Shown here in pieces: positions 7,261 through 26,171 of a stretch of DNA of 64,000 nt (position 1 is the stretch's first letter; the number at the start of each line of letters is the position of its first letter). A program made the position numbers and the translations under genes. The stretch lies in contig NZ_JAFDVD010000007.1 of assembly GCF_016887965.1 (NCBI RefSeq), positions 186,001 through 250,000 of the forward strand, given 5' to 3'. The stretch is from Phycicoccus sonneratiae. GTDB lineage: Bacteria; Actinomycetota; Actinomycetes; Actinomycetales; Dermatophilaceae. A model generated the notes under the pieces. It was not told the DNA's origin. It saw only the letters and a program-made list of their open reading frames with translations, and made no database searches.

Positions 7261-7326
7261 ACTCAGGAAACCCTTACACGCGGCTCATCAGGCCGTTAAC
7301 CTCCTGTCACGAACACGTCATGAGAG
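7261..7326 (+). promoter_or_regulatory. Six-unit 11-bp phased repeat upstream of the response regulator gene
   Basis: Tetramers CTCA, CTTA, CTCA, GTTA, GTCA and GTCA begin at 7262, 7273, 7284, 7295, 7306 and 7317, exactly 11 bp apart. The consensus S-T-Y-A at an 11-bp period is the layout of direct-repeat sites bound by OmpR/PhoB winged-helix regulators; the E. coli Pho box has TGTCA repeats 11 bp apart. The array ends 10 bp before the ATG at 7337 of such a regulator, which implies autoregulation. Because it reaches the ribosome-site region, repression is at least as likely as activation. A better-conserved nine-unit version lies at 25461-25559. Confidence 0.65.
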
Positions 7327-7336
7327 GCAGCAGGGG

Positions 7337-8008
7337 ATGGCTGACATTCTCATCGTGGACGATGAAGCACGGCTCCGGACCCTCCTGGGCCGCACCCTCG
7401 TCGCCGCGGGTCACCGGCCGCTGATGGCAGCGGACGGCGCCGAGGCGTGCGCCGTGGTCCGCAGCCGACGCGTCGACCTCGTCCTCCTCGACCTCGTGAT
7501 GCCGGGGATGGACGGCCTCACCGTCCTGCGCCAGATCCAGCGCCTCCCCGAGCCGCCGACGGTCATCGTGCTCTCCGGCGTCGGCGACGTCGGCACGCGG
7601 GTGCAGGCCATCGAGGAGGGCGCCACGGACTTCGTCGGCAAGCCCTTCGCCACCGCCGAGCTCCTCGCCCGCGTCAACCGCCACCTCGGGACGCCGCGCA
7701 CGGTCAACGACGACGGCCGCTTCCTCGAGCACGGCGACCACCGCCTCGACACGCGGCGGCGCGCGCTCCACACACCGGAGGGCACGCGGATGCTCAGCGA
7801 GCGCGAGTCCGCGGTGCTCGCCTACCTGCTACGGCGCCGGGGTGACGTGTGCACCCGCGACGAGCTGCTCCGGGACATCTGGGGCTTCGAGTTCGACCCC
7901 GGCAGCAACGTCCTCGAGGTCTGCGTCGGACGCCTCCGCACGAAGATCCTCGACCCGACGATGATCGAGACCGTCCGTGGTGTCGGCTACTGCATCGCGG
8001 GCCCGTGA
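7337..8008 (+). CDS. OmpR/PhoB-family response regulator
   Basis: The 223-aa product has an N-terminal receiver domain with acidic pair Asp8/Asp9, phospho-acceptor Asp52 in LLDLVMPGMDG, Ser80 and Lys102 (GKPF). A C-terminal winged-helix DNA-binding domain follows, starting near LSERESAVLAYLL and ending TVRGVGYCI. All key phosphotransfer residues are intact. The gene is followed by its histidine kinase with a 32-base overlap if the kinase starts at 7977. The ATG at 7337 has AGCAGGGG upstream. An 11-bp phased repeat lies directly upstream, and a matching array precedes the giant-protein gene at 25364, so likely targets are itself and the copper-oxidase locus. Confidence 0.94.
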   Translation: MADILIVDDEARLRTLLGRTLVAAGHRPLMAADGAEACAVVRSRRVDLVLLDLVMPGMDGLTVLRQIQRLPEPPTVIVLSGVGDVGTRVQAIEEGATDFVGKPFATAELLARVNRHLGTPRTVNDDGRFLEHGDHRLDTRRRALHTPEGTRMLSERESAVLAYLLRRRGDVCTRDELLRDIWGFEFDPGSNVLEVCVGRLRTKILDPTMIETVRGVGYCIAGP

Positions 8009-9080
8009 CCCCGGCCTCGGCCGGGTGCTCTTCGGCACCTGGCTGGTCGCCCTCGTGGTCTGCTCGGCCGTGCTCCTCCTCGTGCCCCACCTCGAGCTCG
8101 TGGCGATCGAGATCGTCATCTTCGCGTTCGCGGTGCTCTACGGGTTCGGGTCCTGGCCGGTCGGCCGCACGGTCGTCACGGTCGTCGCCTTCGCGGCCTT
8201 CGCCGCCGCGGTGATGCTGCCCCGCGTCGTGCGCGGTGACCTGCCCCCGATCGAGCTCGTCGAGGTCGTGGCGCCCGTCGTGCTGGCGTCCGTCGTCATC
8301 TACCACGTCAGTCGCCGCGACGCCGCCATCGACCGGGCCTCCGAGCTCGCGGCCGCCGACCGGCGACGGGCGGTGGCCCGGGACCGGTTGGGGCGCATGA
8401 CGTCCCACGAGCTGCGCACACCGCTGACCATCGCCCGCGGCTACGTCGACCACCTCGCCGCGAGCGAGGACGACCCCGCGCGCCACGAGGACCTCACGAC
8501 GGTGCGCGAGGAGCTCGACCAGCTGACCCGGGTGGCCGAGCGGCTCGTGCGCGCGGTGTCGCTCGACCTGGGGGCGCCGGACCGGCCGTCCGACACCGCG
8601 GACCTCCTCGAGGAGGTCCGGCGTCGCTGGGCCGTGGTCACCGACCGCGACATCGTCGTCGAGGCCACCGCCCACTCCGTGCCCGTCAACGCGGACCGCC
8701 TGCGGGCGGCCATCGACACCCTCGTCGAGAACTCGATCCGCTACACGTCCGCCGGCGACCGCATCCGCCTCTTCAGCGAGCGCGTCGGCGAGCGCGTCGA
8801 GGTGGGGGTCGCCGACTCCGGCCCGGGCCTGTCCGACGAGCTCGTGCAGCGGGTCAACACCCCCACGGACGCCCCGGACGCCGACGAGTGGGACGCCATC
8901 GACCTGTCGACGCAGCTGCGAGACGCCTACTCGCAGACCGGTTTCGGGCTGCGCATCGTCGCCGGGATCGCCCGGTCGGCGGGCGGTCGCCTCGTCGCCG
9001 GCCGGTCCGAGGAGGGCGGCTCGCGGATGGCCGTGTCGGTCCCCGTCGCCGGCGAGGGGAGCCAGCCGGTCAGCGCGTGA
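7977..9080 (+). CDS. Membrane sensor histidine kinase, partner of the upstream regulator
   Basis: The 367-aa product has about four hydrophobic N-terminal segments (residues 18-110) with almost no extracytoplasmic domain, then a dimerisation/phospho-acceptor domain with His144 in SHELRTPLTIARGY and an HATPase domain with an N box (ENSIRY), G1 (DSGPGL) and G2 (GFGLRI). No HAMP or PAS domain is visible, so sensing may be inside the membrane. The start could be GTG 7977 or GTG 8025; both keep the first membrane helix. The 3' end overlaps the stop of the convergent subtilisin gene by 11 bases. Confidence 0.92.
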   Translation: MVSATASRARDPGLGRVLFGTWLVALVVCSAVLLLVPHLELVAIEIVIFAFAVLYGFGSWPVGRTVVTVVAFAAFAAAVMLPRVVRGDLPPIELVEVVAPVVLASVVIYHVSRRDAAIDRASELAAADRRRAVARDRLGRMTSHELRTPLTIARGYVDHLAASEDDPARHEDLTTVREELDQLTRVAERLVRAVSLDLGAPDRPSDTADLLEEVRRRWAVVTDRDIVVEATAHSVPVNADRLRAAIDTLVENSIRYTSAGDRIRLFSERVGERVEVGVADSGPGLSDELVQRVNTPTDAPDADEWDAIDLSTQLRDAYSQTGFGLRIVAGIARSAGGRLVAGRSEEGGSRMAVSVPVAGEGSQPVSA

Positions 9081-12923: not shown

Positions 12924-13432
12924 GCCTGGGCCGTGACGTGCTCGAGCCGCACGTCCCCGACGACGACGGTGACCTTCGTCCCGTCGCGGATCGCGTTGCG
13001 GGTGTTGGCCATGATGAAGAAGTAGGTGCCGCCGAGGTTCAGCTCGGCCTTGTGGTTGTGCGGCCGCGAGAGCATCGCGAGGGTCTGGCCGGAGTCCTCG
13101 GCGACGAGGACCGGTCGCTTGTCCGGCTGGTGCAGCAGCAGGCTGGCCTTGTCCGGGTCGACCACCTGGTAGCGGAACTCGATCATCCCGCCGCCGCCGG
13201 TGACCCCGAGGAGGGTCAGCTTGACCCCGGTGCGGGCCGCGAACTGCTGGGCGGTCACCGCCTCGGTCCCGGACCGCACGTCGTCCGCGCGAACCATCGC
13301 CGCCCGCACCCCGAGGGTCGCGGCGAGGGCGAGCACCGCGAGGACCGCGACGAACAGCAGCCGTCGCCGGCCTCGGGCCCCGACGGCGCGCGGCGTCGGC
13401 CGGACGGGTGCGGTGAGGGTCCCCGTGGTCAT
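12920..13432 (-). CDS. Small membrane-anchored exported protein of the copper locus, unknown
   Basis: The 170-aa product has an Arg-rich N-terminus and one hydrophobic segment (about residues 25-43), then a globular domain of about 120 residues. The domain contains GGGGMIEFRYQVVDP, RPHNHKAELNLGGTYFF and a C-terminal VVVGDVRLEHV. The histidines of PHNHK and LEHV and a methionine-containing SGQTLAMLS could bind a metal, but no known site is recognised. The ATG at 13432 has AGAGGAC seven bases upstream. It is coupled to CopCD by a four-base overlap and preceded by a large hairpin (13451-13488). A periplasm-facing copper chaperone is a reasonable but untested guess. Confidence 0.85.
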   Translation of the reverse strand: MTTGTLTAPVRPTPRAVGARGRRRLLFVAVLAVLALAATLGVRAAMVRADDVRSGTEAVTAQQFAARTGVKLTLLGVTGGGGMIEFRYQVVDPDKASLLLHQPDKRPVLVAEDSGQTLAMLSRPHNHKAELNLGGTYFFIMANTRNAIRDGTKVTVVVGDVRLEHVTAQA

Positions 13433-13450
13433 GGTGCGTCCTCTCTGGGT

Positions 13451-13488
13451 CGGGGCACCGGCCGGGATGGTCCACGGCCGGTGCCCCG
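13451..13488 (-). terminator. Strong hairpin inside the copper locus (terminator or attenuator)
   Basis: Perfect 14-base arms at 13451-13464 and 13475-13488 enclose a 10-base loop in the 62-bp gap between the 1002-aa protein gene (stop at 13495) and the small protein gene (start at 13432). This is the largest gap in an otherwise overlapping gene run. It probably ends or reduces transcription from the upstream oxidase genes, splitting the locus into two expression units. Confidence 0.6.
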
Positions 13489-13494
13489 GGTCGG

Positions 13495-16400
13495 TCAGGG
13501 CAGGGAGAAGGCGTCGACGTCGCCGTTCGCCGCCCCGAGTCCGTGGGTGGATCCGTCGAAGTAGGTGCTCCACGTCCCGTTGGTGCGCCGGACGACGTCC
13601 TCGTCGGCGACGTTGGCGAGCCCCGGGAGGTTCGTCGTCGTGGCCGCCAGCGAGAAGGCCCAGTCGTTGGCCCCGAGCCACACGAAGCCGTCGACGTTCG
13701 CGGCGGCGGGGATGCCGCTCGCCGCGGCCGCGATGGCCATCGTGTACGTGTTCGCCGTGCCACCGGCCCACCGGTAGATCGCCGAGGACGAGGGGAAGCC
13801 GACGACACCGGTCGGCCGGGTCGCGTCGGCGAGCGAGAAGTAGACGGCGTTCCCGACGACGCTGAACGCGTCGACGTTCGTGGTCGCCGTCCCGAGCCCG
13901 CGGTCGCTGCCGTCGAGGAACTTCGCCCACGCCGTGCCCGTCCACCGGATGACGTCGCGCGGCTGGACCTGGCCCAGCCCCGGGACGGTCACCGTGTTCG
14001 AGAACGACACGTAGAGCTGTGAACCGGTGCCGCGGGCGAAGCCGTCGACGTTGCCCGCGGCCGGCACGTTGTACGGCGCGGCGTTGAGGGCGTAGCCCCG
14101 GGAGGCGGCCGTGCCGCTCCACCGGTAGACGTCCGTCGTCCGGGCGGTGCCCGTGACCCCGGTGGGGTTGAGCGCCCCGAGGGTCGAGAACCACAGCGGC
14201 CGGGTCACCGTGAGGGTCGCCGTCGCCGTCCGGACGTTGCCGGCCGCGTCCCGGGCCCGGACGACGACGCGGTTCGCGCCCTCGGGGAGGGTCCGGGTGT
14301 CGACGCCGGCGGAGAACGTCCCGGTGGCCGACGGCACCACGGCGGTGCCCCGGCCGACACCCGGGTCGGTGCCGACGAAGTACTCGACCGACACGGGGCC
14401 GGACGGGTCGGTCCCGACCGTCCCGGACAGCGTCGCCTGGAGGGCGCCGGCGGTCGGGTTCGGGGTGAGGGCCAGGGCCCCGAGGGTGGGTGCGGTCTTG
14501 TCGATGACGAGCTGCACCGACACCGCCGTCCCCCAGTTGCCGGCGGCGTCGCGACCGCGGACCCAGATGGTGTGCGAGCCCTCGGACATCAGCCGCACGG
14601 TCGCGAGCGGGATGTCGAGGTAGACGGCCTCGGTCGGGGTGGTGAACGCACCGTCGGAGGACTCGACGGGCACACCCGTCCCCGCAGCCCCGGCGGCCGC
14701 CGTGTCGACGAAGGCCTCGGCCTTGGTCACCGGGCTCTGGGCCGTCCCGAACGGGCCGCCAGAGGTCCCGGACGCGGGGTCGCCGACCGTCGCCGTCACG
14801 CGCACCGCGGACGAGGAGGCGTTGACCGGCAGCGTGCCGTTGTTCGGTGACGGGTCGACGGAGACGTCGCTCGTCGTCGGTCCCGTGCGGTCCACGACGA
14901 GGATCGACTCGGTCGTCGGACCCCAGTTGCCGGACTCGTCCTGCGTCGCGACGAGGACCGTGTGCTGACCCTCGGGCAACGCGGCCACCGTCGCGGCCGG
15001 GATCGTCCCGGTCAGCGAGGCCACCGGACCGTCGGTCTCGAGCGTCATCGCCGTCGTCGCTGCGTCGGGGGCGTCGAGCGACCAGCGCCCGCCGGTGATG
15101 GCGCCGTTGCCGGACGCCGAGTCGTCGCCGGTCGCACCGATGACGACCGGTGCCGAGCCGTTGGACCGGTCGGGGGTCAGCGAGACGCCGGTGGTCGTCG
15201 GACCGACGACGTCGTTGCCGACGACGAGCACCGAGCTCCACGGGCCCCAGGCGCCGTTGGCGTCACGGCCGCGCACGTAGAGGACGTGCTGGCCGGAGAC
15301 GATGTCGGCCGGCCCGGTGACCTCGACGCTCGGGGTGCCGAAGGTACCGGTCATCGCGACCGGGGTCGCCCCGATCGAGTCGAGCCGCAGCTCGGCCTCG
15401 GTGACGGCCGCCCCGCCGGTGGCGGCGTCGCTGACCGTCGCCGTGACGGTGCCGGCGTCCTTGTCCCAGGTGACGCCGGTCGTCGCCGGGCCCGAGTCGT
15501 CCGTGGGCGACCCCGCGCCCGCGACGTCGATGAAGGTGAGCATCCCGCCCGCCCCGGCGGCGTTCGTGTTGTGCAGCGACAGGGAGGCGTCGTACACGGC
15601 CAGCCGCCGGTCGGTGGTCGTCGTCGGCGCGCCGACGATGACGTCCTCGGTCTGGCCCGGGCCCACCGTGTCGGCGACGAGCCGCCGGGAGAGGTCGGCC
15701 GCGCCGTTGGCGAGCCGGTTGCCGTCGAGGCCCACGACGCGCTGGTCGGCGCCGAGGACGGCCATCGAGCGGTACGAGGTGCCGGCGTTGACCCAGCGCA
15801 GGAGGACGTCGTCGCCGGAGGACGCGGCGACGTGCGCGGCCGCCGGGTGGACCTTGCCGTTGACGAGCGTCCAGCGCGGCGCGTACGTGCGCATGTCGAA
15901 CGCGGCGGGGTTCGAGGACCCGTTGAGCAGCGGGTCGATCTCGCCGAGGACGAGCACGCCCTCGGCGTCGTACGTCGTCGAGGCGTCGTACGCCTGCCCG
16001 GCGGTCGCGGGGTGGACGACGAGGGCGCCGTAGAGGCCCATCGCGACCTGGTGCTGGTGGTTCGGCGTGAGTCCCGCCTCGTAGAGGTAGGTGCCCGGCC
16101 GTCCCGCGGTGAAGGTGTAGCTCGTCGTCCCTCCGCCGGGTGCGCCGACCGTGTCGGGCACGATCGCCTGGCCACCGAGCTGGAGCGAGGTCGCCTCGCC
16201 GAGGGTGTTGTGGAGGGTGATCGTCACCTCGTCGCCCGCGGTGACCGACAGCACCGGTCCCCCGGGGGCGTCGACGCCCCCGCAGGCGGTGCCGGCGTCG
16301 GCGCGGCGGCAGAAGCCCCACACCGGGACGGACGTCGTCGTGCCGCCCTTCGCGGGGAGCGTCGTCGTCCCCTGCGTGGCGTCGAGGTGGATGTCCACGG

Positions 16401-16503
16401 TGTCGGCGCTGGCCGACCCGGCCGGCCCGAGGAGCAGGCCGAGGACGGTGAGGGCCCCACCGGCGAGCGTCGTGAGGACGGCTGTGCGCACGTGCTTCGT
16501 CAT
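13495..16503 (-). CDS. Exported cupredoxin-domain protein with Ig-like repeats and a C-terminal repeat domain
   Basis: The 1002-aa product has a signal peptide (cleavage near SASA, residue 33). Residues about 35-330 resemble the neighbouring multicopper oxidases (GDEVTITLHNTLGEATSL; TYLYEAGLTPNHQHQVAMGL) and are clearly paralogous to the next gene upstream. The usual HxH and HCH copper motifs are mostly lost; His149, His151 and Met155 in NHQHQVAM may remain as ligands. Residues about 335-765 are Ig-like repeats, each with a TTGV or TSDV strand followed by a VDRTGPTT-type boundary. The last about 230 residues hold two copies of a repeat (VDGF, VPGLG, DVV, FDGS, GLG, DVDAFS) that also ends the 2049-aa protein. 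The start is 13 bases after the previous stop. Confidence 0.9.
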   Translation of the reverse strand: MTKHVRTAVLTTLAGGALTVLGLLLGPAGSASADTVDIHLDATQGTTTLPAKGGTTTSVPVWGFCRRADAGTACGGVDAPGGPVLSVTAGDEVTITLHNTLGEATSLQLGGQAIVPDTVGAPGGGTTSYTFTAGRPGTYLYEAGLTPNHQHQVAMGLYGALVVHPATAGQAYDASTTYDAEGVLVLGEIDPLLNGSSNPAAFDMRTYAPRWTLVNGKVHPAAAHVAASSGDDVLLRWVNAGTSYRSMAVLGADQRVVGLDGNRLANGAADLSRRLVADTVGPGQTEDVIVGAPTTTTDRRLAVYDASLSLHNTNAAGAGGMLTFIDVAGAGSPTDDSGPATTGVTWDKDAGTVTATVSDAATGGAAVTEAELRLDSIGATPVAMTGTFGTPSVEVTGPADIVSGQHVLYVRGRDANGAWGPWSSVLVVGNDVVGPTTTGVSLTPDRSNGSAPVVIGATGDDSASGNGAITGGRWSLDAPDAATTAMTLETDGPVASLTGTIPAATVAALPEGQHTVLVATQDESGNWGPTTESILVVDRTGPTTSDVSVDPSPNNGTLPVNASSSAVRVTATVGDPASGTSGGPFGTAQSPVTKAEAFVDTAAAGAAGTGVPVESSDGAFTTPTEAVYLDIPLATVRLMSEGSHTIWVRGRDAAGNWGTAVSVQLVIDKTAPTLGALALTPNPTAGALQATLSGTVGTDPSGPVSVEYFVGTDPGVGRGTAVVPSATGTFSAGVDTRTLPEGANRVVVRARDAAGNVRTATATLTVTRPLWFSTLGALNPTGVTGTARTTDVYRWSGTAASRGYALNAAPYNVPAAGNVDGFARGTGSQLYVSFSNTVTVPGLGQVQPRDVIRWTGTAWAKFLDGSDRGLGTATTNVDAFSVVGNAVYFSLADATRPTGVVGFPSSSAIYRWAGGTANTYTMAIAAAASGIPAAANVDGFVWLGANDWAFSLAATTTNLPGLANVADEDVVRRTNGTWSTYFDGSTHGLGAANGDVDAFSLP

Positions 16504-16516
16504 CGTCGTCCCCGTC

Positions 16517-17833
16517 TCACGCGCAGGTGTTCGGCTCGGGCGGCTCGATCCGCATGTACGTGATCGGGCCGGTCATGTTCACGCCCCACGACGTGATCTG
16601 GAACAGCGCGTGGTTGTGGGAGATGATGTAGAACTCCCCGCACTGGTTGAGGGTCTGCACGCCCGGCGGCAGCTCCTTGGTGTCCCCGAGGTAGGGGCTG
16701 CCGCTGTAGAAGGTGCCGACCACCTGGTTGGCCAGGCTCGGGACGGTCACCGACACCGGGTTCGACGGGCTGTAGTCCTCGGCGTCGTACCACTTGTAGA
16801 GGACGTCCCACGTCTGACCGGGGCCGATGTTGATGGCGAACTTCTCCATCGACAGGTCCTGCCCGGTCTCCGAGGTCAGCGGGTGCCCGTCACGCCCGAC
16901 CACGAGGCCGTTGTTGCCGTGCGGGTGGAACGGGTAGTCCTCGCTGCCGACGCTGAGGTAGCGCGCCAGGCCCGGCAGCGGGTGGGTCGCCGGGTCGTAC
17001 GGCTTGACGGTCGCGAGCGAGCCGTAGGGCTGGGACGGCAGCCACGACGCGCCGTTGTCGGCGATGCTGTCCGGGTACCCGCGTCCGTTGACCAGCCAGT
17101 AGCGGGCCTTGTAGTTGACGAGGTTGAAGGTCTTGCCCTGCTCGACGGCCGCGTGCTGGAACGGGTCGATCTCGGAGAGCAGGACCATGACCTCCTCGGA
17201 GGCGGTGAACCGGCTCGACGCCGCGTCGTACGCCTGGTCGGCGTGGCCGGCCGGCCGCACGATGAGCGCCCCGAACAGGCCCATCCGGACCTGGGTCTCG
17301 GGGTCGGTGCCCGACTCGTAGAGGAAGGTCCCGGCGTGGGTGGCGGTGAACGTGTAGCTCACGGTCCCGGTCGACGGGGCGGCCCCCTGCCCGAGGCCGG
17401 TCATCATCCCGGAGCCGGCGTCGACCTGCGGCTGCGACGGCACGCCGTCGGCGCGCACGCCCTCCTGGCCCGGGAAGACGATCGAGGTGGCCACGTCGAG
17501 GGTGTTGTGGAGGATGACGGTGACCTCGTCGCCCTCGGTGACGCAGAGGACGGGGCCGGGGTGCTGGAAGGCGTCGAACCCGTTCGAGAAGCCCCACATG
17601 AAGGCGGTGTTGCCGTCGGGGAGGTCGATGTACCCGGTGCGGGTCGTGAGGTCGAACACCGGGTGCCCGGCCTCCGTGCCGCCGGTCGTGCAGACGATGC
17701 CGTTGCGCGGGGGCGCCGCCGCGGTGGCGGCCGGGACCGACGTCGCGGCCGCTCCGCCGAGCGCGACGAGCGCACCGACGGCCACCACCGCGCCGCGGCG
17801 CAGCGCGCGCCGGGTCAGGAACCTGGTGCTCAT
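16517..17833 (-). CDS. Exported multicopper-oxidase-like protein, C-terminal copper motifs only
   Basis: The 438-aa product has a signal peptide with RRALRRGAVVAVGALVAL, possibly Tat-type. The N-terminal cupredoxin domain (GDEVTVILHNTLDVATSIVF; GTFLYESGTDPETQVRMGL) lacks the HxH and HCH ligands. The C-terminal domain keeps YPFHPHGNNGL (His303, His305) and IISHNHALF (His406, His408), resembling the third and fourth multicopper oxidase motifs without the usual Cys. It therefore cannot form a complete type 1/type 2-3 centre by itself. The ATG overlaps the upstream oxidase stop (ATGA 17830-17833), implying equimolar production and possibly one complex. Confidence 0.9.
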   Translation of the reverse strand: MSTRFLTRRALRRGAVVAVGALVALGGAAATSVPAATAAAPPRNGIVCTTGGTEAGHPVFDLTTRTGYIDLPDGNTAFMWGFSNGFDAFQHPGPVLCVTEGDEVTVILHNTLDVATSIVFPGQEGVRADGVPSQPQVDAGSGMMTGLGQGAAPSTGTVSYTFTATHAGTFLYESGTDPETQVRMGLFGALIVRPAGHADQAYDAASSRFTASEEVMVLLSEIDPFQHAAVEQGKTFNLVNYKARYWLVNGRGYPDSIADNGASWLPSQPYGSLATVKPYDPATHPLPGLARYLSVGSEDYPFHPHGNNGLVVGRDGHPLTSETGQDLSMEKFAINIGPGQTWDVLYKWYDAEDYSPSNPVSVTVPSLANQVVGTFYSGSPYLGDTKELPPGVQTLNQCGEFYIISHNHALFQITSWGVNMTGPITYMRIEPPEPNTCA

Positions 17834-19218
17834 GCGGGGAACCCCCAGTCGTTCGGGAAGGCCTGTGCCCCAGGGGCGCCCGCGGCGCCGGAGGCGTAGA
17901 CCCTGATCTCTGTCGCCTGGCCGCCGAAGCCGCCGTCGGCGAGGTTGTTCGACCGGGTGAAGGCCCGGTTGTACAGGTAGTACGTGTCGAAGTCGCCGTC
18001 GCCGACCTTGTCCGGGGCGGTGACGAGCACGTCGAAGCTCTCCCCCGGCCCGATGTTCAGCGTGTCGGTCTCGTACGAGGTGTCCGTGCCGTCGCGGCCG
18101 CGCATCGGCGTCGCGTCCCGGCCGACGACGCGCATCCGCATCCCGGCGACGGTCATCGCCGACTCCCGGAAGCCGAGGTTCGCGAACCGGAGGGCCACCC
18201 GCTCCCCCTCGACGCACGTGACGAGCGAGGAGATGGGCTGGTACTTCAGCTCGGGGTGCCCCGCGGGGGCGATGAGGTCGCCGGCGCCGTCGAAGGTGCG
18301 ACCGGCCTCGACGTCGAACGGGTTCACCCCGGGACCGTTGGGCGCCACCGTGTCCGGGTACACCCGGCCGTTGAGGAGCGCGAAGTCGGCGTGGTAGTCG
18401 CTCCACTCCGGCAGCTGGATGTGCGCGTCGTCCCAGTGCGCCTCGGCCCAGACCTCGGAGAGGAACATCGAGAACTCGCGGTCGAAGCCGGTGCTGCCGT
18501 CCCCGTCGTTGTAGAGGAAGCGGGTGAAGGTGCGCCCGCCGTGGGTGTGGCTCTGGCCGTCCTGCTTCGGCCGGACGAAGACCATGCCGGTCATGCCCAT
18601 GTGCACGTGCTCGACGTCCTCGACGTGGCAGTGGAACATGTAGGTACCGGGGTCACGCGGCCGGTACACGTAGGTGAACTCCCGCCCGGCCGGCACCGAC
18701 ACCGAACCGCTCGGCTCGCCGTCGAAGAACGGGATCACGTTGCGGAAGCCGTGCCAGTGCAGCGTGTGCGCGTCGAAGAGGTCGGGACGCAGCTCGAGCC
18801 CGAGGTTGGTCAGCTGCACGCGGAACTCGTTGTGCGTGGCCTCGTCGTACTGGTCGACCCAGAAGATCGGCGCCGAGTGCTGCGCCTTGTACTTCTGGCC
18901 CAGCCGCTGCGTCGTGTCCATCCCGGTGACGTTGCGGAACCCGAAGATGTACGTCGTCAGCCCGTCGGGGGCCAGCGGGTCCGGGTGGAACGGCGGGATG
19001 GCGGGCTCGGCCGGCAGGTGCATCCAGCCGTCGGTCCCGGCGAGGTAGAGGTTCACCGGGCCGGGGGCCGCGGCGGCCCCCTGCTCGGGGAGGAGCACCC
19101 GCCCGGCCCAGCCGCCGGCCCCGGCCACGAGGGCCGCGCTGCCGGTGAGGCCGAGGAGCCGCCGGCGGCTCAACGAGGTCCGGCGGGGGCCGCCGGTGGT
19201 CGCGTCGGAGGTCGTCAT
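17830..19218 (-). CDS. Tat-exported multicopper oxidase, N-terminal copper motifs only
   Basis: The 462-aa product begins with a twin-arginine signal (SLSRRRLLGLTGSAAL, residues 15-30), as expected for a protein folded with cofactor before export. The first cupredoxin domain has HTLHWHGF (His151, His154, His156) and FHCHVEDVEHVHMGM (His196, Cys197, His198, His204, Met209), a full type 1 copper set plus trinuclear-type ligands. The second half, where His ligands would be expected, reads GFRESAMTVAGMRMRVVG and has none. It thus complements the next gene, whose ligands are only in the C-terminal half. It overlaps the stop of the 2049-aa protein gene (ATGA 19215-19218). Confidence 0.92.
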   Translation of the reverse strand: MTTSDATTGGPRRTSLSRRRLLGLTGSAALVAGAGGWAGRVLLPEQGAAAAPGPVNLYLAGTDGWMHLPAEPAIPPFHPDPLAPDGLTTYIFGFRNVTGMDTTQRLGQKYKAQHSAPIFWVDQYDEATHNEFRVQLTNLGLELRPDLFDAHTLHWHGFRNVIPFFDGEPSGSVSVPAGREFTYVYRPRDPGTYMFHCHVEDVEHVHMGMTGMVFVRPKQDGQSHTHGGRTFTRFLYNDGDGSTGFDREFSMFLSEVWAEAHWDDAHIQLPEWSDYHADFALLNGRVYPDTVAPNGPGVNPFDVEAGRTFDGAGDLIAPAGHPELKYQPISSLVTCVEGERVALRFANLGFRESAMTVAGMRMRVVGRDATPMRGRDGTDTSYETDTLNIGPGESFDVLVTAPDKVGDGDFDTYYLYNRAFTRSNNLADGGFGGQATEIRVYASGAAGAPGAQAFPNDWGFPA

Positions 19219-22200
19219 CGCTGTCCCCTGGTCATCCGGACGGGTGTGGGTGTGGTGGGTGCCTGGGCCTGCCGGGCCGGGGCCGCGAGCGGGGCCGGGG
19301 CGGGTGCGCTGTCCGGCATCGAGAAGGCGTCGATGTCGAGGCCGGCGGGCGTCAGGCCGTGGGCGGTCCCGTTGAACCACACGCTCCACGTGCCGTTCGA
19401 GTACTCGACGATGTCCTCGTCCTGCACCGCCCCGATGCCCGGGAGGGTGGTGTCGGCACCGAACGAGTACCAGCCGTGGGTGGCCGAGTCGAAGACCGCT
19501 CCGTCGACGACGGCCGCCGTGGGGACTCCCTTGGTGCTGGCGTCCCAGACCCGCGCGAAGACGGAGCCGTTCCACTGGTAGACGTCGGAGTTGTCCGCGG
19601 TGCCCGACACCCCCGGCGGGTTGGCGACGCCGGTCGTCGAGAAGTACAGCGACCCGCCGCGGACACCGATCGAGGTGATGTCGAGCGCGGCGCTCGTCAG
19701 GCCTCGTGCGGTGCCGTCGAACCACACCGACCAGGCCGAGCCGTTCCAGTACACGACGTCCTCGTCCTGGACCGTCCCCACGCCCGGGAGCGTGACGTCG
19801 GTGGTGAAGGACATGTACCAGTGCGTGGCGTCGACCGAGGCGAAGCCGTCGACGTTGGCGGCCGCCGGGATCCGCGGGCCGGGGTTGGCCTGCGCCCGGA
19901 CGACCCGGGAGTAGGCGTTCGTCGCACCGTCATAGCGGATGACGTCGGAGTCGTCGACCGTGCCGCTGACCCCGGCGATGGTGCCGGTCCCGGCCGTCGA
20001 GAACAGGAACGCGACCGGCGGCGGCGGCGGGGCGACGTAGGCCGCCTCGTCGGCGCCGGCGTCCGGCAGCGGACCGTTCGGCCGGGCGTCGCCGTCGATG
20101 TCGCGCGACGAGACCGTGATGCCACCGCGGCTCATCACCCCGAGGTCGCAGGCGGGCGACCCGCCGGCGGCGCAGCTCGCCAGGTGGTAGTTGCCGAGGA
20201 GGTCGGCCGGCTTCTCGACCGCGACGACGGTGGCGTCGACGAAGGCCGGGTTCTGGCGCCAGGTGGCGAAGGACACCGACACCGTCCACGGCTCGACGAC
20301 CTTCGGGTCGCTCGAGCGGTTGCTCGCGTCCTGGGTGTACGGGTGGACGGAGGCGTCCTGCTGGATCACCGAGTTGAGCGGGGCGAGGACTCCGGGGAAG
20401 TCGGCCACGCCGACGTCCCACGGCTCGACGTCCGAGGCGCCGCCCAGGCCGATGCCGCTCACCGTGGTGCCGGCGCGCGTGCCGGCCCGGTTGTCCCACA
20501 ACACGTTGTCGAACAGCGCCGGCCGGCTGAAGGCGGGCGACCCGGCCGGGAGCGTGGCCTGGAGCTGCTGGCTGTTCTCGGACGTCGACACACCCGCGGG
20601 GGCGGGCAGGCCGGTGGAGGTCACCGCCGTGGCCGTCGTGATGTTGTCCATGATCGTGTTGCTGTAGATCCGGACGTCCGGGGCGTCGTTGATCGCGATG
20701 CCGCCGCCCTCGTGGGTCGAGACGTTGCTCGCGATGACGTTGTCGTGCACGTTCATCGGGTAGTTGCCCGCCATGAGGAAGCGGATGCCGCCACCGTCGT
20801 CGTTCGCGAGGTTGCCCTTGATCTCGTTGGCGTAGATGTCCACGGCACCGGTGCCCGGAGAGAGCACGTCGGGGTCGGCCTGCAGGGCGCCGGCCATCAT
20901 GATCCCGGCTCCCTCGTCGTTCGAGTTGTTGAGCGTGAACCGGTTGTCGTGCACCGAGCCACCGGGGCTGTAGCCGTAGACGCTGAGGCCGGCGCCGTAC
21001 TCGAGGGAGAAGTTGCCGCAGACGTCGTTGCCCGCCACCTCGTAGCCGTCCGAGCCGCCGAAGAGACCGATGGCGCCCGCGAGGTTGGTGCCCGCGTTCT
21101 GGAGGATGCGGTTGTTGGCGATCCGCACCTTCTCGTTGTGCTGGTTGGCATCGGTCCCGGTGAGGTCCGGGGTGCCGACGCGGATCGTGCCGTAGCCGCC
21201 GCCGTTGTTCTCGACGACGTTGTTCGTCACCTGGAGCTGGCGGACGTAGGCGTTGGCGAAGACCGCGCCGCCCTGCGTGACGATGTTCGGCGGCAGCCCG
21301 GTCACCTGGCCCGTGAGGTCGTTGATGTTGCCCGGGAAGCCCTGCTGGTCACCGCCGCGCAGGTCGAACCCGTCGATCGACGGCTTGAAGGCGTTCGCCG
21401 CGGTGGAGTACTCCGCCGCCGTGGCGGTGGCCCCGGGCGCCTTGCCGAGGAGGTAGACGACCGCGCCGTCGCTGACGGTCTGGTTACCCGACCAGGTCAT
21501 CGCGCCGACCTTCGTGAACCAGTCGGTCGCGAGGTCGGTGTCGCCGCCGAACGCGCTGCCGTCGATGACCGTCCCCTGCACGTAGGGCGCGTTGGTGTCG
21601 GTGCCCTGGAAGCCTCCGGCCCCGACGCCCTGGAGCTTGAGCGGGCCGCTGACGACGAGGTTCTCGTAGTAGGCGCCCCGCGGGTTGCCCGCGCTCGGGG
21701 TGTTGGGCATGACGACCACGAGGTCGGTGGCCGCGGAGGCCCGGGCGTCGTCGATGGCGTTCTGGATCGGGTGCCGCACGAGCGACCCCGGCCGCTGGCT
21801 CGCGGCCTTCGTCGGGTCGTACTGGGGGTTGCTCACGCCCGGACCCACCTGGAGCACGGTGGGGTTGTAGGCCGACCCGAGCTGGTGGTAGGTCAGGCCG
21901 TTCGTCGTCCGCAGCCCGTTGCCGCTCGTCACCGAGAGGTCGTAGGGGCCGGCCGCGAGCTGTCCCGTGGCCGTGCCGACCGCCGGGATCGTCGCGACGA
22001 TGCGGGTGTTGGTCCACGTGGTCGTCGTCAGGACGGTGGTGCCGAGGCGGACGGCGCCGGTGCCCTTGGTGTCGCCGAAGCCGTAGCCGGTGATGGTCAC
22101 CGAGCGGGCGGCGCCGCTGGTCGCGCTCCGCATGAACGGCTGGTCGACCGAGAACAGCTGCGGGCGAGCGAGGTTCGGCATGCACTTGACCGTCGTCGGG

Positions 22201-25200
22201 CTCGAGCCCGGCGTGCCGAGGCTGACACCCACCTGGGTCGGGGCGAGGTCGGTCGGGATGGTGACCCCCGGAGTCGCCTCGAACTCGGTGCCGATGGTGC
22301 GGAACCGCGGGTTGTAGTCGGCGTTGAGGGCGCCGGGCACCCCGGGGTCGTTGCCGACGAACCGGTACATGTTCTGGCACACGCCCGACGGGGTGGGGCA
22401 GTTGATGTGGTCGGTCGACGGCATGAGCACGTCGTAGTAGCCGTTGAAGTCGGAGTGGGCCGTGTACTTCAGGTCGTTCGCGAAGTCGTAGATGCCCACC
22501 GGCGCGTTCGGCACACCGGCCTTGTCGCCGTAGAGGACCGAGCGGTTGTCCGTCGAGTAGTTGAGGTCGTCGACGATGAGGCCGCGCAGGCGCGACGGGA
22601 TCGGGACGTCGGTGAAGAGGTGGAACATCGGGACGATCGACTTGCCGTTGGCCAGCGGCACGAGCTTGGTGTCGCACTCCGGGCGCACGGTGCCCTCGTA
22701 GGGCGAGCCGCCGATGTCGGCGAAGGTCGGGTTGTGCACCGGCGTCGAGGCGCCCACCGTGACCCCGGCGGGCACGCCGGCCACCGGGCCGACCTTCTCG
22801 CCGTAGCCGTCCGTGCCGCGACCCTCGACGTCGACGGTGTGCAGCGCGCCGACGCACGCGGCGGGCGGCGCCTGGGGGACGACCTGGTCACCGCGGCCGA
22901 TGTTGATGTCCTCCTCGCGGGTCACCTGGTACATGGGCTTCCCGGTCGGGTCCTCGGGGATCTCGACCGAGACGAGGTAGTCGCCGGCGCCGAGCGGCGC
23001 GAACGAGCCTCCGGTGCACTGGGGGTCGCTGGGGTCGGAGGCGTCGAGGGTGCCGGTGCAACCGTCCCCGAAGCCGTAGTTGCCGTCGACGGACGCGCCG
23101 AAGCCGGCGTCCGGGGTGCCCTGGCCCGACGCGTAGGTGCCCACCTGGACGCCCTGGATGAGCGCCGAGATGCACTCGCCGTCGGTCTCCTGGTTCGTCA
23201 CGAGGACGTTCTCCTCGGTGCCGTGGGTGAACGGCTTGCCGTCGACGTCGCGAGCGGTGCAGCCGGTGGGCCGGCTCCAGTGCTCGGAGACGTAGGAGTT
23301 GAGCAGCCGGCCCTTGGCGTAGGAGCCGTCGGGGGCGAGCTCGTAGGTGTCGGTCGCGTCGCACGGCGCGCTCGTGGTCCCACAGGTGACCGGCGCGTAG
23401 AGCTTGACCGGGACCCCGGAGATCCCCGGCTGCCAGTCCTCGGTCGCGGCGTAGCGCGGGTCGAGCTCGTTGCGGGTCGTGTCGTAGCTGACGGAGCCGA
23501 CGATGCCGCCGTTGCGCGGGCCGCCCTTCGTGCCCGTGGGGTCGTACTTCTGGACGCCCCAGTCGACCCGGCCGGAGAGACCGATGATCGGCAGGATGCT
23601 GACGTCGACCCCGGAGCCGAGCACCGTCGTCGGGGTCGGCTGGTTGTCGGTCTGGTAGGTGACGCCGGTCGTGTAGAAATTGTCGGAGTAGGCCTCCATG
23701 ATGAGCCACTCGGCGAGCGGGTAGGCGCTCGGGAATTCGAAGTAGCCGGTGGAGTCGGTCGACGCTGCGGTCGAGCCGCGGTCCATCAGCGAGTTGTCCT
23801 TCTTGCGCAGCGTCAGCGGGAACTGGGCCACGCCCGCCTCACCGGGGTCGCGCTTGCCGTTCTTGTTGTTGTCGAGGAAGACGTGGCCCGTCAGCGGGGT
23901 CCACCAGCCGTTGAGCGGCAGCTGCTTGAGGTCGACCGCCTTGCCGCCGCTGACCGTGACGTTGACGAGCTGGAGGATGTAGTTCTGCGGCTCGTCCCAC
24001 CACGTGAGCATGTAGGTGCCGTCCGGCACGTGCGGGATGGTGAAGGTGCCGTCGGCGGCGGCCCGGCCGGCCCAGATCGACTGGTCGCCGTTGCCGAGGT
24101 CGTTGAGCGAGAGCACCGCGTTGGGGATGGGCTTGTCGAGCTTGCTGCCGACGCTCCCCCAGTACTGGTTGAAGCTGCCACCGACCGGCGGGTAGTACTG
24201 CTTGACGCCGACGACGGTGCCCTTGATCGAGCCGGTCGCGGTCGAGGTGGCGATGTCGTTGTGCGGGTGGACGAAGCCGAACTGCGGGGTGGGGACGAGC
24301 TCGCCGGCGAGGGTGAACTCGGTGTCGTAGCCCGTAGAACCCTCGAGGAGCCAGGTGTCCCAGTCGTGGTTGCCCTCGAGGGTCGTCGTCTGGACCCAGT
24401 CCGAGCCGTCCGGGGGCGTCACGTAGGTCGTGTACCGGTTCGTCCCGAGGTGGGGGATGACGAGCATCCCGTCGGCGTCGCTGAGGCACTTGCCGCCGAC
24501 GGTCTGGACGATCGGGTTGCCGTCGGCGTCGCGCGACGCGGCGTTCCACGGGATCTCGTAGTTCGCGTTCTCGTTCTTGTACCTCGTGCACAGGGGGTTC
24601 CCGTAGACGTCGGTCGTCACCTCGCCGAGCACGTCGTTGATGTGCCCCTGGAAGTCCTTGAGTCCGTTCTCCCCGTTGTCGATCGCGCCGTTGCTCGAGG
24701 CCTCGTCCTGGAACACGAACGCCCGCAGCGTGGAGTCGGAAAGCGGGTTCGGCTGGACGGTGACGTCGATGACCGGGTCGGTCGTCGGCACGGTGAAGTG
24801 CACGCCGTCGAGCTTGTAGCCGTCGGCGAGCACGCTGATGAGGTAGCGCCCGTCAGGCAGGTCGATGGTCGCGCCGTTCGCGAAGTCCTCGGAGGTCCCC
24901 TGGCGCTGGATGGGGGCCCCGGTCACCTCGTGGAGCGAGGCCCAGGTGCACTCCGAGGGGTAGCCGGGGTCCTCGGCGGAGCAGCCCGAGCCCGGCTCGG
25001 GGGCGCCGACCGGGTCGGAGGTCCCGGTGTCGTCGACGTTGATCATGTAGCGGAAGTCGCCGACCGGCTGCCCGGCGGTGACGGCCCCGCCGGGCGCGTG
25101 CGGCTCGGTGCGCGCGCTCGTCACGCGCACGCTGACGGTGTTCGTGGGGTCGGCCTGCGCGGGGGCCGCCAGCACCACCGGCACGGCGACCGCCGTGCCG

Positions 25201-25364
25201 GTGGCCAGGGCGGTGGCGCCGACCATCGTGACCACGCGTCGGAGGAGGGACCCCGGACGCCACAGACCGCGGGACCCCGGGCGCCGGCGTCCGGCACCCG
25301 CGGTGGTCGTCCTGTGCGTCGTCGTGGCCGTGACGTCGGCCGGGACGTGGTGACTTCCCTGCAT
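19215..25364 (-). CDS. Giant secreted SdrD-like/beta-helix surface protein (2049 aa)
   Basis: A long signal peptide (RRVVTMVGATALATG core, cleavage after APAQA near residue 69) precedes SdrD/carboxypeptidase-regulatory-like beta domains, for example TGHVFLDNNKNGKRDPGE and DGTYMLTWWDEPQNY. Then follow an IPT/TIG-like domain (SVTITGYGFGDTKGTG) and a parallel beta-helix with NN and GN ladder turns (RIANNRILQN, HDNRFTLNNSN, IYSNTIMDN). The C-terminal two-unit repeat shares VDGF, VPGVG/LPGIG, DEDVV, FDGT/FNGT and DIDAFS with the 1002-aa protein. No LPXTG or membrane anchor is seen. I chose ATG 25364; an upstream GTG at 25466 would run into the 11-bp repeat array. It heads the locus and may be a scaffold for the co-encoded oxidases; the role is inferred. 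Confidence 0.9.
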   Translation of the reverse strand: MQGSHHVPADVTATTTHRTTTAGAGRRRPGSRGLWRPGSLLRRVVTMVGATALATGTAVAVPVVLAAPAQADPTNTVSVRVTSARTEPHAPGGAVTAGQPVGDFRYMINVDDTGTSDPVGAPEPGSGCSAEDPGYPSECTWASLHEVTGAPIQRQGTSEDFANGATIDLPDGRYLISVLADGYKLDGVHFTVPTTDPVIDVTVQPNPLSDSTLRAFVFQDEASSNGAIDNGENGLKDFQGHINDVLGEVTTDVYGNPLCTRYKNENANYEIPWNAASRDADGNPIVQTVGGKCLSDADGMLVIPHLGTNRYTTYVTPPDGSDWVQTTTLEGNHDWDTWLLEGSTGYDTEFTLAGELVPTPQFGFVHPHNDIATSTATGSIKGTVVGVKQYYPPVGGSFNQYWGSVGSKLDKPIPNAVLSLNDLGNGDQSIWAGRAAADGTFTIPHVPDGTYMLTWWDEPQNYILQLVNVTVSGGKAVDLKQLPLNGWWTPLTGHVFLDNNKNGKRDPGEAGVAQFPLTLRKKDNSLMDRGSTAASTDSTGYFEFPSAYPLAEWLIMEAYSDNFYTTGVTYQTDNQPTPTTVLGSGVDVSILPIIGLSGRVDWGVQKYDPTGTKGGPRNGGIVGSVSYDTTRNELDPRYAATEDWQPGISGVPVKLYAPVTCGTTSAPCDATDTYELAPDGSYAKGRLLNSYVSEHWSRPTGCTARDVDGKPFTHGTEENVLVTNQETDGECISALIQGVQVGTYASGQGTPDAGFGASVDGNYGFGDGCTGTLDASDPSDPQCTGGSFAPLGAGDYLVSVEIPEDPTGKPMYQVTREEDINIGRGDQVVPQAPPAACVGALHTVDVEGRGTDGYGEKVGPVAGVPAGVTVGASTPVHNPTFADIGGSPYEGTVRPECDTKLVPLANGKSIVPMFHLFTDVPIPSRLRGLIVDDLNYSTDNRSVLYGDKAGVPNAPVGIYDFANDLKYTAHSDFNGYYDVLMPSTDHINCPTPSGVCQNMYRFVGNDPGVPGALNADYNPRFRTIGTEFEATPGVTIPTDLAPTQVGVSLGTPGSSPTTVKCMPNLARPQLFSVDQPFMRSATSGAARSVTITGYGFGDTKGTGAVRLGTTVLTTTTWTNTRIVATIPAVGTATGQLAAGPYDLSVTSGNGLRTTNGLTYHQLGSAYNPTVLQVGPGVSNPQYDPTKAASQRPGSLVRHPIQNAIDDARASAATDLVVVMPNTPSAGNPRGAYYENLVVSGPLKLQGVGAGGFQGTDTNAPYVQGTVIDGSAFGGDTDLATDWFTKVGAMTWSGNQTVSDGAVVYLLGKAPGATATAAEYSTAANAFKPSIDGFDLRGGDQQGFPGNINDLTGQVTGLPPNIVTQGGAVFANAYVRQLQVTNNVVENNGGGYGTIRVGTPDLTGTDANQHNEKVRIANNRILQNAGTNLAGAIGLFGGSDGYEVAGNDVCGNFSLEYGAGLSVYGYSPGGSVHDNRFTLNNSNDEGAGIMMAGALQADPDVLSPGTGAVDIYANEIKGNLANDDGGGIRFLMAGNYPMNVHDNVIASNVSTHEGGGIAINDAPDVRIYSNTIMDNITTATAVTSTGLPAPAGVSTSENSQQLQATLPAGSPAFSRPALFDNVLWDNRAGTRAGTTVSGIGLGGASDVEPWDVGVADFPGVLAPLNSVIQQDASVHPYTQDASNRSSDPKVVEPWTVSVSFATWRQNPAFVDATVVAVEKPADLLGNYHLASCAAGGSPACDLGVMSRGGITVSSRDIDGDARPNGPLPDAGADEAAYVAPPPPPVAFLFSTAGTGTIAGVSGTVDDSDVIRYDGATNAYSRVVRAQANPGPRIPAAANVDGFASVDATHWYMSFTTDVTLPGVGTVQDEDVVYWNGSAWSVWFDGTARGLTSAALDITSIGVRGGSLYFSTTGVANPPGVSGTADNSDVYQWNGSVFARVWDASTKGVPTAAVVDGAVFDSATHGWYSFGADTTLPGIGAVQDEDIVEYSNGTWSVWFNGTAHGLTPAGLDIDAFSMPDSAPAPAPLAAPARQAQAPTTPTPVRMTRGQR

Positions 25365-25460
25365 TCCACTCAACCCCTGCTGCCGGAGCACCCCCCTGCG
25401 GGCGCTCACGGGAGAATGAGACGACGCGGACGCCCCGGGGGCCGAGGGTTTGGCGACTTT

Positions 25461-25559
25461 TGTCACGGAAGGGTCAAGACCCGGTCAGGCAATGGTCAGT
25501 GACGGGTCATGTCGCTGTCAGGGGGGCGTCACCCCGCCGTCAGGAACCTGTCATCCGGC
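25461..25559 (-). promoter_or_regulatory. Nine-unit GTCA array with exact 11-bp period upstream of the giant-protein locus
   Basis: GTCA begins at 25462, 25473, 25484, 25495, 25506, 25517, 25528, 25539 and 25550, nine times without a gap. The preceding base is T, G or C and the six bases after vary, so only the tetramer is kept. The period equals one DNA turn, as for PhoB/OmpR-type tandem binding. The array is in the 387-bp non-coding stretch between the giant-protein start (25364) and the NTF2-like gene end (25752). A possible -10 (CATTCT on the minus strand) is at 25413-25418 with no good -35, consistent with an activated promoter. Nothing else was seen in that stretch. Confidence 0.75.
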
Positions 25560-25751
25560 GGGCCTGACCGACGCACGGCCCGGACGGCGTGGCGGCGCCG
25601 GATCTGGTTGCTCCACAGACGTTCTCGCGCCGCGAGCAGGGTTCGGCCGGCGTGGCACGGCCCAGGAGCGGAGGGAGCCCAGGGCCCCGCCGCGGGGTGA
25701 CATGGCCCGACCGGGCCACTCGACGGGCCCCGGCGGACCGTGGGCAGGGTG

Positions 25752-26171
25752 TCAGCCGGTGGTCGGGGCGTCCCCGTCGGGCACCTGGATGTAGTACTCC
25801 GTGAACTCCCGGCACCGTCCGTGGGCGTCGAACCGCACGACGAAGCAGTTGTCGTAGGTGCGCACGACGGGGCCGCCTGGGACGTCCCGGTAGCGGGACC
25901 GCCCGGTGGCCACGACGGTGTCGCCGTCGACCGCGACCGGGGCGTACTCGGCGTCGTAGGTGCCGGGGGCGTCGCGGGTCGAGGCGCCCGCTGCGTCGCC
26001 CTCGCCGAGCCACGAGGAGACGACGGCGTCCCGGCCGACGACCGGCTCGTCGGAGGGGTGGTACCGGTACCGGACGTCCGGCGCGAAGAGGTCCGCGACG
26101 GCCCGGGGGTCGTACGACTCCCACGCCGCGAGGTAGCGGTCCAGCCAGCCCTGCGCGCTCGAGTGGTCCAT
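25752..26171 (-). CDS. NTF2-like (SnoaL-type) protein
   Basis: The 139-aa product has the cone-shaped NTF2 fold signature: an N-terminal helix WLDRYLAAWESYDPRAVADLF followed by the strand region VRYRYHPSD, then VVGRDAVVSSW and the closing strands FVVRFDAHGRCREFTEYYI. Such proteins act as small enzymes or ligand binders (SnoaL-like, ketosteroid-isomerase-like); the catalytic residues are too variable to name a substrate. Length is typical. The ATG at 26171 faces away from the next gene (26280), with a 108-bp divergent gap that shows no clear operator. Confidence 0.85.
   Translation of the reverse strand: MDHSSAQGWLDRYLAAWESYDPRAVADLFAPDVRYRYHPSDEPVVGRDAVVSSWLGEGDAAGASTRDAPGTYDAEYAPVAVDGDTVVATGRSRYRDVPGGPVVRTYDNCFVVRFDAHGRCREFTEYYIQVPDGDAPTTG

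Follow-up and report, generated by a model that had tools for sequence, protein, structure and literature searches.

A nine-unit GTCA array upstream of giant-protein and multicopper-oxidase genes in Phycicoccus sonneratiae, a putative operator for an OmpR/PhoB-family regulator

The stretch of Phycicoccus sonneratiae DNA analysed here (64 kb; hereafter, the window) carries genes for a giant secreted protein, two multicopper oxidases, a response regulator and a histidine kinase, together with two arrays of short direct repeats. The relevant features are as follows.

7262..7320, plus strand: array at the regulator's gene, six STYA words (CTCA, CTTA, CTCA, GTTA, GTCA, GTCA) at 11-bp steps
7337..8008, plus strand: OmpR/PhoB-family response regulator P0002, the proposed binder (domain search)
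7977..9080, plus strand: sensor histidine kinase open reading frame (HisKA, HATPase_c); the true start may be further in
13495..16503, minus strand: multicopper oxidase-like protein 2; it contains an Ig-like domain and, at its C-terminus, a module also found in the giant protein
17830..19218, minus strand: multicopper oxidase 1; its ATG overlaps the stop codon of the giant gene (ATGA)
19215..25364, minus strand: gene for a giant secreted protein of 2049 aa, starting with ATG at 25364 (domain search; signal sequence by eye)
25386..25407, minus strand: predicted leader hairpin between the array and the start codon, with a GCAGG-containing loop
25462..25553, plus strand: putative operator array, nine GTCA words at a strict 11-bp period (TGAC in the coding direction of the giant gene)

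The giant protein begins with a likely signal sequence, judged by eye, and contains SdrD_B and TIG domains above their cut-offs; a beta-helix match was sub-threshold. Since the stop codon of its gene overlaps the start codon of multicopper oxidase 1, the two genes probably form one operon. The C-terminus of the giant protein and the segment at 13411-14193 share a module (42% over residues 1821-2075), perhaps a sorting or anchoring domain. Giant proteins and multicopper oxidases occur together (L036-L114) in records whose titles name Actinomycetota, Chloroflexota, Bacillota and some Pseudomonadota, and no functional study of this combination was recognisable in the literature from titles and the beginnings of abstracts. 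The leader hairpin has similar counterparts in three relatives (G002, G008 and G005) and could possibly serve translational control; no Rfam family matched 25200-25800 at E values up to 1.

P0002 carries receiver (PF00072) and Trans_reg_C (PF00486) domains above cut-off. Among the 25 of 102 NCBIfam families listed (MtrA, PhoB, KdpE, CztR/SilR/CopR and others), it stayed below every cut-off, the best score being 144.5 bits against a cut-off of 279.2; in particular, it does not reach the PhoB cut-off. Its best matches among solved structures were MtrA, RegX3 and PrrA. The histidine kinase encoded at 7977..9080 is the probable partner of P0002.

The array upstream of the giant gene was first described from the letters alone as nine GTCA words at an 11-bp period, and the word positions confirm this: the first bases fall at 25462, 25473, 25484, 25495, 25506, 25517, 25528, 25539 and 25550. 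The nearest GTCA after the array, at 25751, is out of register. The array lies in non-coding DNA flanked by the giant-protein gene and by a gene on the minus strand that encodes a SnoaL-like domain, and the gap to the ATG of the giant gene at 25364 is 97 bp, exactly as had been claimed. No clear -10 element was seen by eye near the array. The spacers vary between units and the tetramer is the sole invariant part, the flanks being weakly biased in pooled units of upstream regions. A 7-nt PHO box core, whether that of E. coli (CTGTCAT) or of S. coelicolor (GTTCACC), is not conserved in each unit. Direct repeats at an 11-bp period, as found here, characterise OmpR/PhoB-type tandem operators.

A tetramer is short, and a run of them could in principle be a chance event or a simple-repeat artefact. 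GTCA occurs 242 times in the window, and nine of them at one step would be expected about 1e-17 times by chance, if words are assumed independent. Furthermore, the spacers differ by unit and, as described below, arrays recur at orthologous genes; on expectation, spacer variety and recurrence we reject this explanation, whose probability is practically nil. Other runs of any tetramer in the window, at periods from 4 to 30, reached a maximal length of 4, with period 22 merely re-finding the nine-unit array. The degenerate word STYA formed two runs of at least four units at 11 bp in the window, namely the nine-unit array and the six units at the gene of the regulator. Scans at ten further periods turned up no additional run (period 22 again re-found the nine-unit array), nor did permuted words at the 11-bp period yield any.

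The array had also been placed on one face of the helix. A turn of B-DNA takes about 10.5 bp, slightly less than the 11-bp step, so the nine units drift by some 140 degrees. Thus, the single-face description holds as an approximation and fails as a strict alignment. An exact step of 11 bp, rather than a 10.5-bp average, would favour direct contacts between neighbouring proteins.

Comparison with the closest relatives fits the statement that only the tetramer is conserved: it is invariant in the array, and the spacers vary freely among three species. Orthologous arrays comprise nine units in G008 (including TGAG twice and TCAC), nine in G002 (including TGAG, TAAC and TCAC) and six in G005 (one GAAC), so that unit number differs among close relatives (nine, nine, nine and six, with P. 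sonneratiae included). Between P. sonneratiae, G002 and G008, pairwise identity is 92-94% in the tetramers and 44-52% in the spacers; the 60 bp upstream of the array are 22-37% identical and the 60 bp downstream 50-55%, these flank values being lower bounds because the comparison was ungapped and anchored on the last unit. Position by position, 27 (T), 23 (G), 27 (A) and 23 (C) of 27 pairwise comparisons in these three species were identical, against 8-15 at spacer positions. A conserved core in each unit with a variable spacer is again what an OmpR/PhoB-type tandem operator displays. The distance from the last unit to the start codon is 101-105 nt in all four species. G005 holds both giant-gene lineages (L027 and L032), each with its own array, and encodes two regulators of the P0002 clade, one of which adjoins the second giant gene.

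A scan of a genome collection with an alignment of eight N-terminal regions as query returned 98 relatives, and the best 80 of the 98 yielded 79 loci. A relative of oxidase 1 lies in the flank of 63 of these, and one of either oxidase in 65, some of the other contigs being short. Upstream DNA sufficed for scoring in 76 loci, and in 14 of them the array scores at least 9, which 0 of 100 shuffles of each matched; conservation of the array at orthologous giant genes, proposed as a check in the sequence-only reading, is thereby found. A score of 6, corresponding to two-unit arrays, was reached by 0-8 of 100 shuffles and is weak by itself. The longest array, in Phycicoccus sp. Root101, has fourteen units in register (eight exact), and Humibacillus and each of two Intrasporangium species have ten array positions; many positions in all these arrays are imperfect. 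The plain 11-bp scorer understates slipped arrays; G057, for instance, scores two units, although further TGAN words are visible there by eye, two of the steps being 10 bp. Across 1.19 Mb (all 79 loci, both orientations), every one of the 14 arrays with a score of at least 9 stands upstream of a giant gene. Arrays strewn through coding DNA, which had been named as evidence against an operator, were not seen: none of that score occurs elsewhere in the 1.19 Mb.

The spacing recurs in the pooled regions. In 29 upstream regions, hand-picked and partly chosen for 11-bp arrays, TGAC-TGAC distances numbered 56 at 11 bp, 38 at 22, 33 at 33 and 26 at 44, and no other distance between 4 and 45 was seen more than 4 times. 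In 20 regions, likewise hand-picked, of loci whose flank has no close regulator, no TGAC-TGAC pair had a distance of 11 bp.

The presence of the array goes with the presence of a P0002-like regulator. Among 58 genomes, that of P. sonneratiae included, a giant gene and a close P0002 homologue (E < 1e-60) occur in the same 7 and neither occurs in the other 51; this cut-off was set afterwards, and at 1e-40 some match appears in 10 of the 58. A P0002 homologue, 40-56% identical, lies divergently beside the giant gene in 21 of 79 loci, and upstream of it in the same orientation in L039, L040 and L084, four loci with weaker matches being uncounted. Where a locus scored at least 6 and the regulator was missing from its flank, a regulator was found elsewhere in 9 of 10 genomes tested. 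This search covered the genomes of 22 hand-picked loci: in the four strong-array genomes the regulator matched with E values between 2.6e-63 and 5.8e-121. In six other actinomycetes the values ranged from 8.4e-47 to 3.2e-54, and the remaining twelve (two of them Actinomycetota) had 6.9e-43 at best or no match. Where status is known (46 loci), array and regulator are both present in 33 and both absent in 11, and one each has only the array or only the regulator (Fisher p 1e-8, with cut-offs of 130 bits, E 1e-45 and score 6 chosen after the data were seen, and with p-values that overstate independence because the loci are related). The two exceptions are L041, a weak array without a regulator, and L073, a regulator without an array. 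Beyond these 46, one of 31 loci has a weak array.

In the window, P0002 and its putative target at the giant gene are 17 kb apart, and the claim that this regulator has an array of its own stands, with six STYA words at 11 bp (7262-7320) ending 16 bp before the P0002 ATG. By eye, the same register is kept in G002 and G008, where the third unit of G008 has GTCA in place of CTCA; the regulator gene of G005 shows no evident array. Among the regulator genes inspected in other genera, a clear GTCA array in this orientation was found only for L130 (I. flavum) and L131 (Humibacillus), the rest being weak or without one; L128 is G002 again and L129 was left out of this reading.

In the regulator tree, a branch with support 100/99 separates 42 labelled regulators from 18 others. 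Of the 42, 35 are partners of array loci and 7 are best or second matches from six actinomycete genomes without a linked regulator, with one row per locus. The clade splits in two. Subclade 1 (19 loci, duplicates removed) goes with direct arrays. A composite element, TGAC-N7-TGAC-N6-GTCA, made of two direct repeats and an inverted one, is found at 18 of the 21 loci of subclade 2 and at none of the 19 of subclade 1; the misses are L073, L085 (GTTA for GTCA) and L091. Pairing is uncertain for 6 of the 21 subclade 2 loci, since their regulator is the best match elsewhere in the genome; with linked regulators alone, the element is present in 15 of 15. L082 has the composite element and no known regulator, and was left out of the subclade counts. 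In L039 and L040 (two loci from Nocardioides MAGs), a giant gene of the P. sonneratiae type is accompanied by a subclade 2 regulator and a composite operator, which indicates that the operator follows the regulator and not the controlled gene. Thus, judged from these comparisons, the predicted operator design follows the regulator subclade rather than the tree of the giant gene. The composite element is also seen in G052 (L023 1408-1432), directly before the gene of a more distant OmpR-family regulator outside the clade, and away from the giant gene in L132 and L137.

Taken together, the conservation of the array, its co-occurrence with the regulator, the divergent adjacency of regulator and giant gene in other genera, the regulator-gene array shared with two sister species and the match of operator type to subclade point to P0002. 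They support the proposal of the sequence-only reading that the array is of OmpR/PhoB type and probably serves the regulator 17 kb away; the nine-unit array may be read as an OmpR/PhoB-type operator and a putative P0002 site.

The rest of the genome offers another candidate of the same family. In the 4.1-Mb genome, the nine-unit array is the only exact run of at least four GTCA at 11 bp. Allowing one mismatch adds two places, upstream of kdpA (contig 8) and of a DUF4118 gene (contig 17), and these are also the only other places with at least three exact units; a reversed control pattern of three exact units at 11 bp occurs nowhere in the genome. Both places, with three to four GTCA at 11 bp (L009 8215-8251 and L010 7974-8010), are likely KdpE sites by gene context, and one may ask whether KdpE or a similar OmpR-family regulator is the main binder of the nine-unit array as well. 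We consider this improbable. The kdp-type sites share GTCA at 11 bp with the array, but they have three or four units and a GTCARGA-like extension. Moreover, the giant-gene arrays go with the P0002 clade, the P0002 gene has an array of its own, and the regulator near kdpA (L009) lies outside that clade.

On our best estimate (probability about 0.82), the array serves the giant-protein/multicopper-oxidase operon as its operator, bound in tandem by P0002 and activating, with autoregulation at the regulator's gene. P0002 would belong to an unnamed OmpR/PhoB-family clade that accompanies the module in Actinomycetota, and the adjacent kinase would phosphorylate it. Each phosphorylated monomer would then occupy one 11-bp unit in a head-to-tail row, recognise the GTCA tetramer through its recognition helix and make contact with the monomers beside it. 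In this way, up to nine copies may cover about 100 bp, and the coated array could activate a promoter located between itself and the start codon; the second, more degenerate array at P0002's own gene would provide autoregulation. Binding by P0002, dependence on phosphorylation, activation rather than repression and a steep response are all what we infer.

P0002 might instead bind the array as a repressor or use it as a silencing platform. The regulator's own array ends 16 bp before a start codon, where binding could block expression, and the evidence leaves the sign unfixed. The giant-gene array, on the other hand, lies about 100 nt upstream of its start codon at a distance kept in four species, as expected of an upstream activator site, and this position makes activation likelier than repression. 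Dedicated OmpR/PhoB-family regulators usually activate, which also disfavours a repressor. Silencing thus appears unlikely, though it is the weightiest alternative to activation by P0002.

Tandem 11-bp sites are themselves well known. A literature search on nine tandem OmpR-type repeats led to the E. coli ArcA sites, for which the retrieved text describes direct repeats spaced 11 bp centre to centre, mostly with more than two units (two to five elements, against nine here and fourteen in Root101), and cooperative binding by footprint (PMC3798270). In Actinomycetota, the Streptomyces PhoP PHO boxes are likewise 11-nt direct repeat units, core and ancillary, bound cooperatively, with a GTTCACC core in contrast to GTCA here and, in pitH2, four core and two weaker units, according to excerpts of the reports (PMC7866108, PMC4415409). 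M. tuberculosis PhoP, a different regulator, docks in tandem on 7-bp motifs with a 4-bp spacer, a resemblance to the present array; its motif is TCACAGC, and three and four motifs (the most described in the portion of the text consulted) were bound tighter than two (PMC4832192). Following the precedent of M. tuberculosis PhoP and ArcA, a head-to-tail row with one regulator per 11-bp unit is the simplest reading of the present array. A protein outside the OmpR family that polymerises on direct repeats could also be imagined, BldC being an example, which multimerises head to tail on direct repeats whose number varies; its units as given in the retrieved text are 9 bp with the consensus AATTXXXX(C), in contrast to 11 bp and GTCA here (PMC5859096). 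On unit length and consensus we reject BldC, and a binder of this kind is very improbable. In comparison with the natural sites of ArcA (five) and PhoP (four plus two) described in these texts, and with those systems only, the array is longer. What sets the present case apart is the length of the array, nine tetramers conserved with free spacers, two operator designs within one regulator clade, and graded lengths.

The history of the module bears on how such lengths arose. In a giant-protein tree of 84 rows made with a quick method, the lineage of the P. sonneratiae type lies inside a 40-row clade, of which 31 rows are without the array label, 22 of them Chloroflexota; it stands apart from the main other actinomycete giant-gene lineage. 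The array label, which includes weak two-unit loci, requires five changes on this tree. No strong array was found in the Chloroflexota members of this clade, and no close regulator in six Chloroflexota genomes searched. The second actinomycete lineage has a giant gene of its own, and in both actinomycete lineages the arrays are accompanied by one and the same clade of regulators. The tree suggests two or more origins of array control, with doubt left by long branches, losses and the quick method. A further tentative reading, to which we give somewhat less than even odds, is a repeated origin of long arrays for a single regulator clade, in which a surface-oxidase module acquired horizontally was re-wired as its array grew to 9-14 units.

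For the widespread giant-protein/multicopper-oxidase module, our analysis supplies candidates for both the regulator and its operator. Orthologous promoters with two to about fourteen units, matched to one regulator clade, form a natural series for relating unit number to promoter sharpness. If the reading of repeated origin is true, these operators of 2 to 14 units would let array length be measured against the steepness of the switch.
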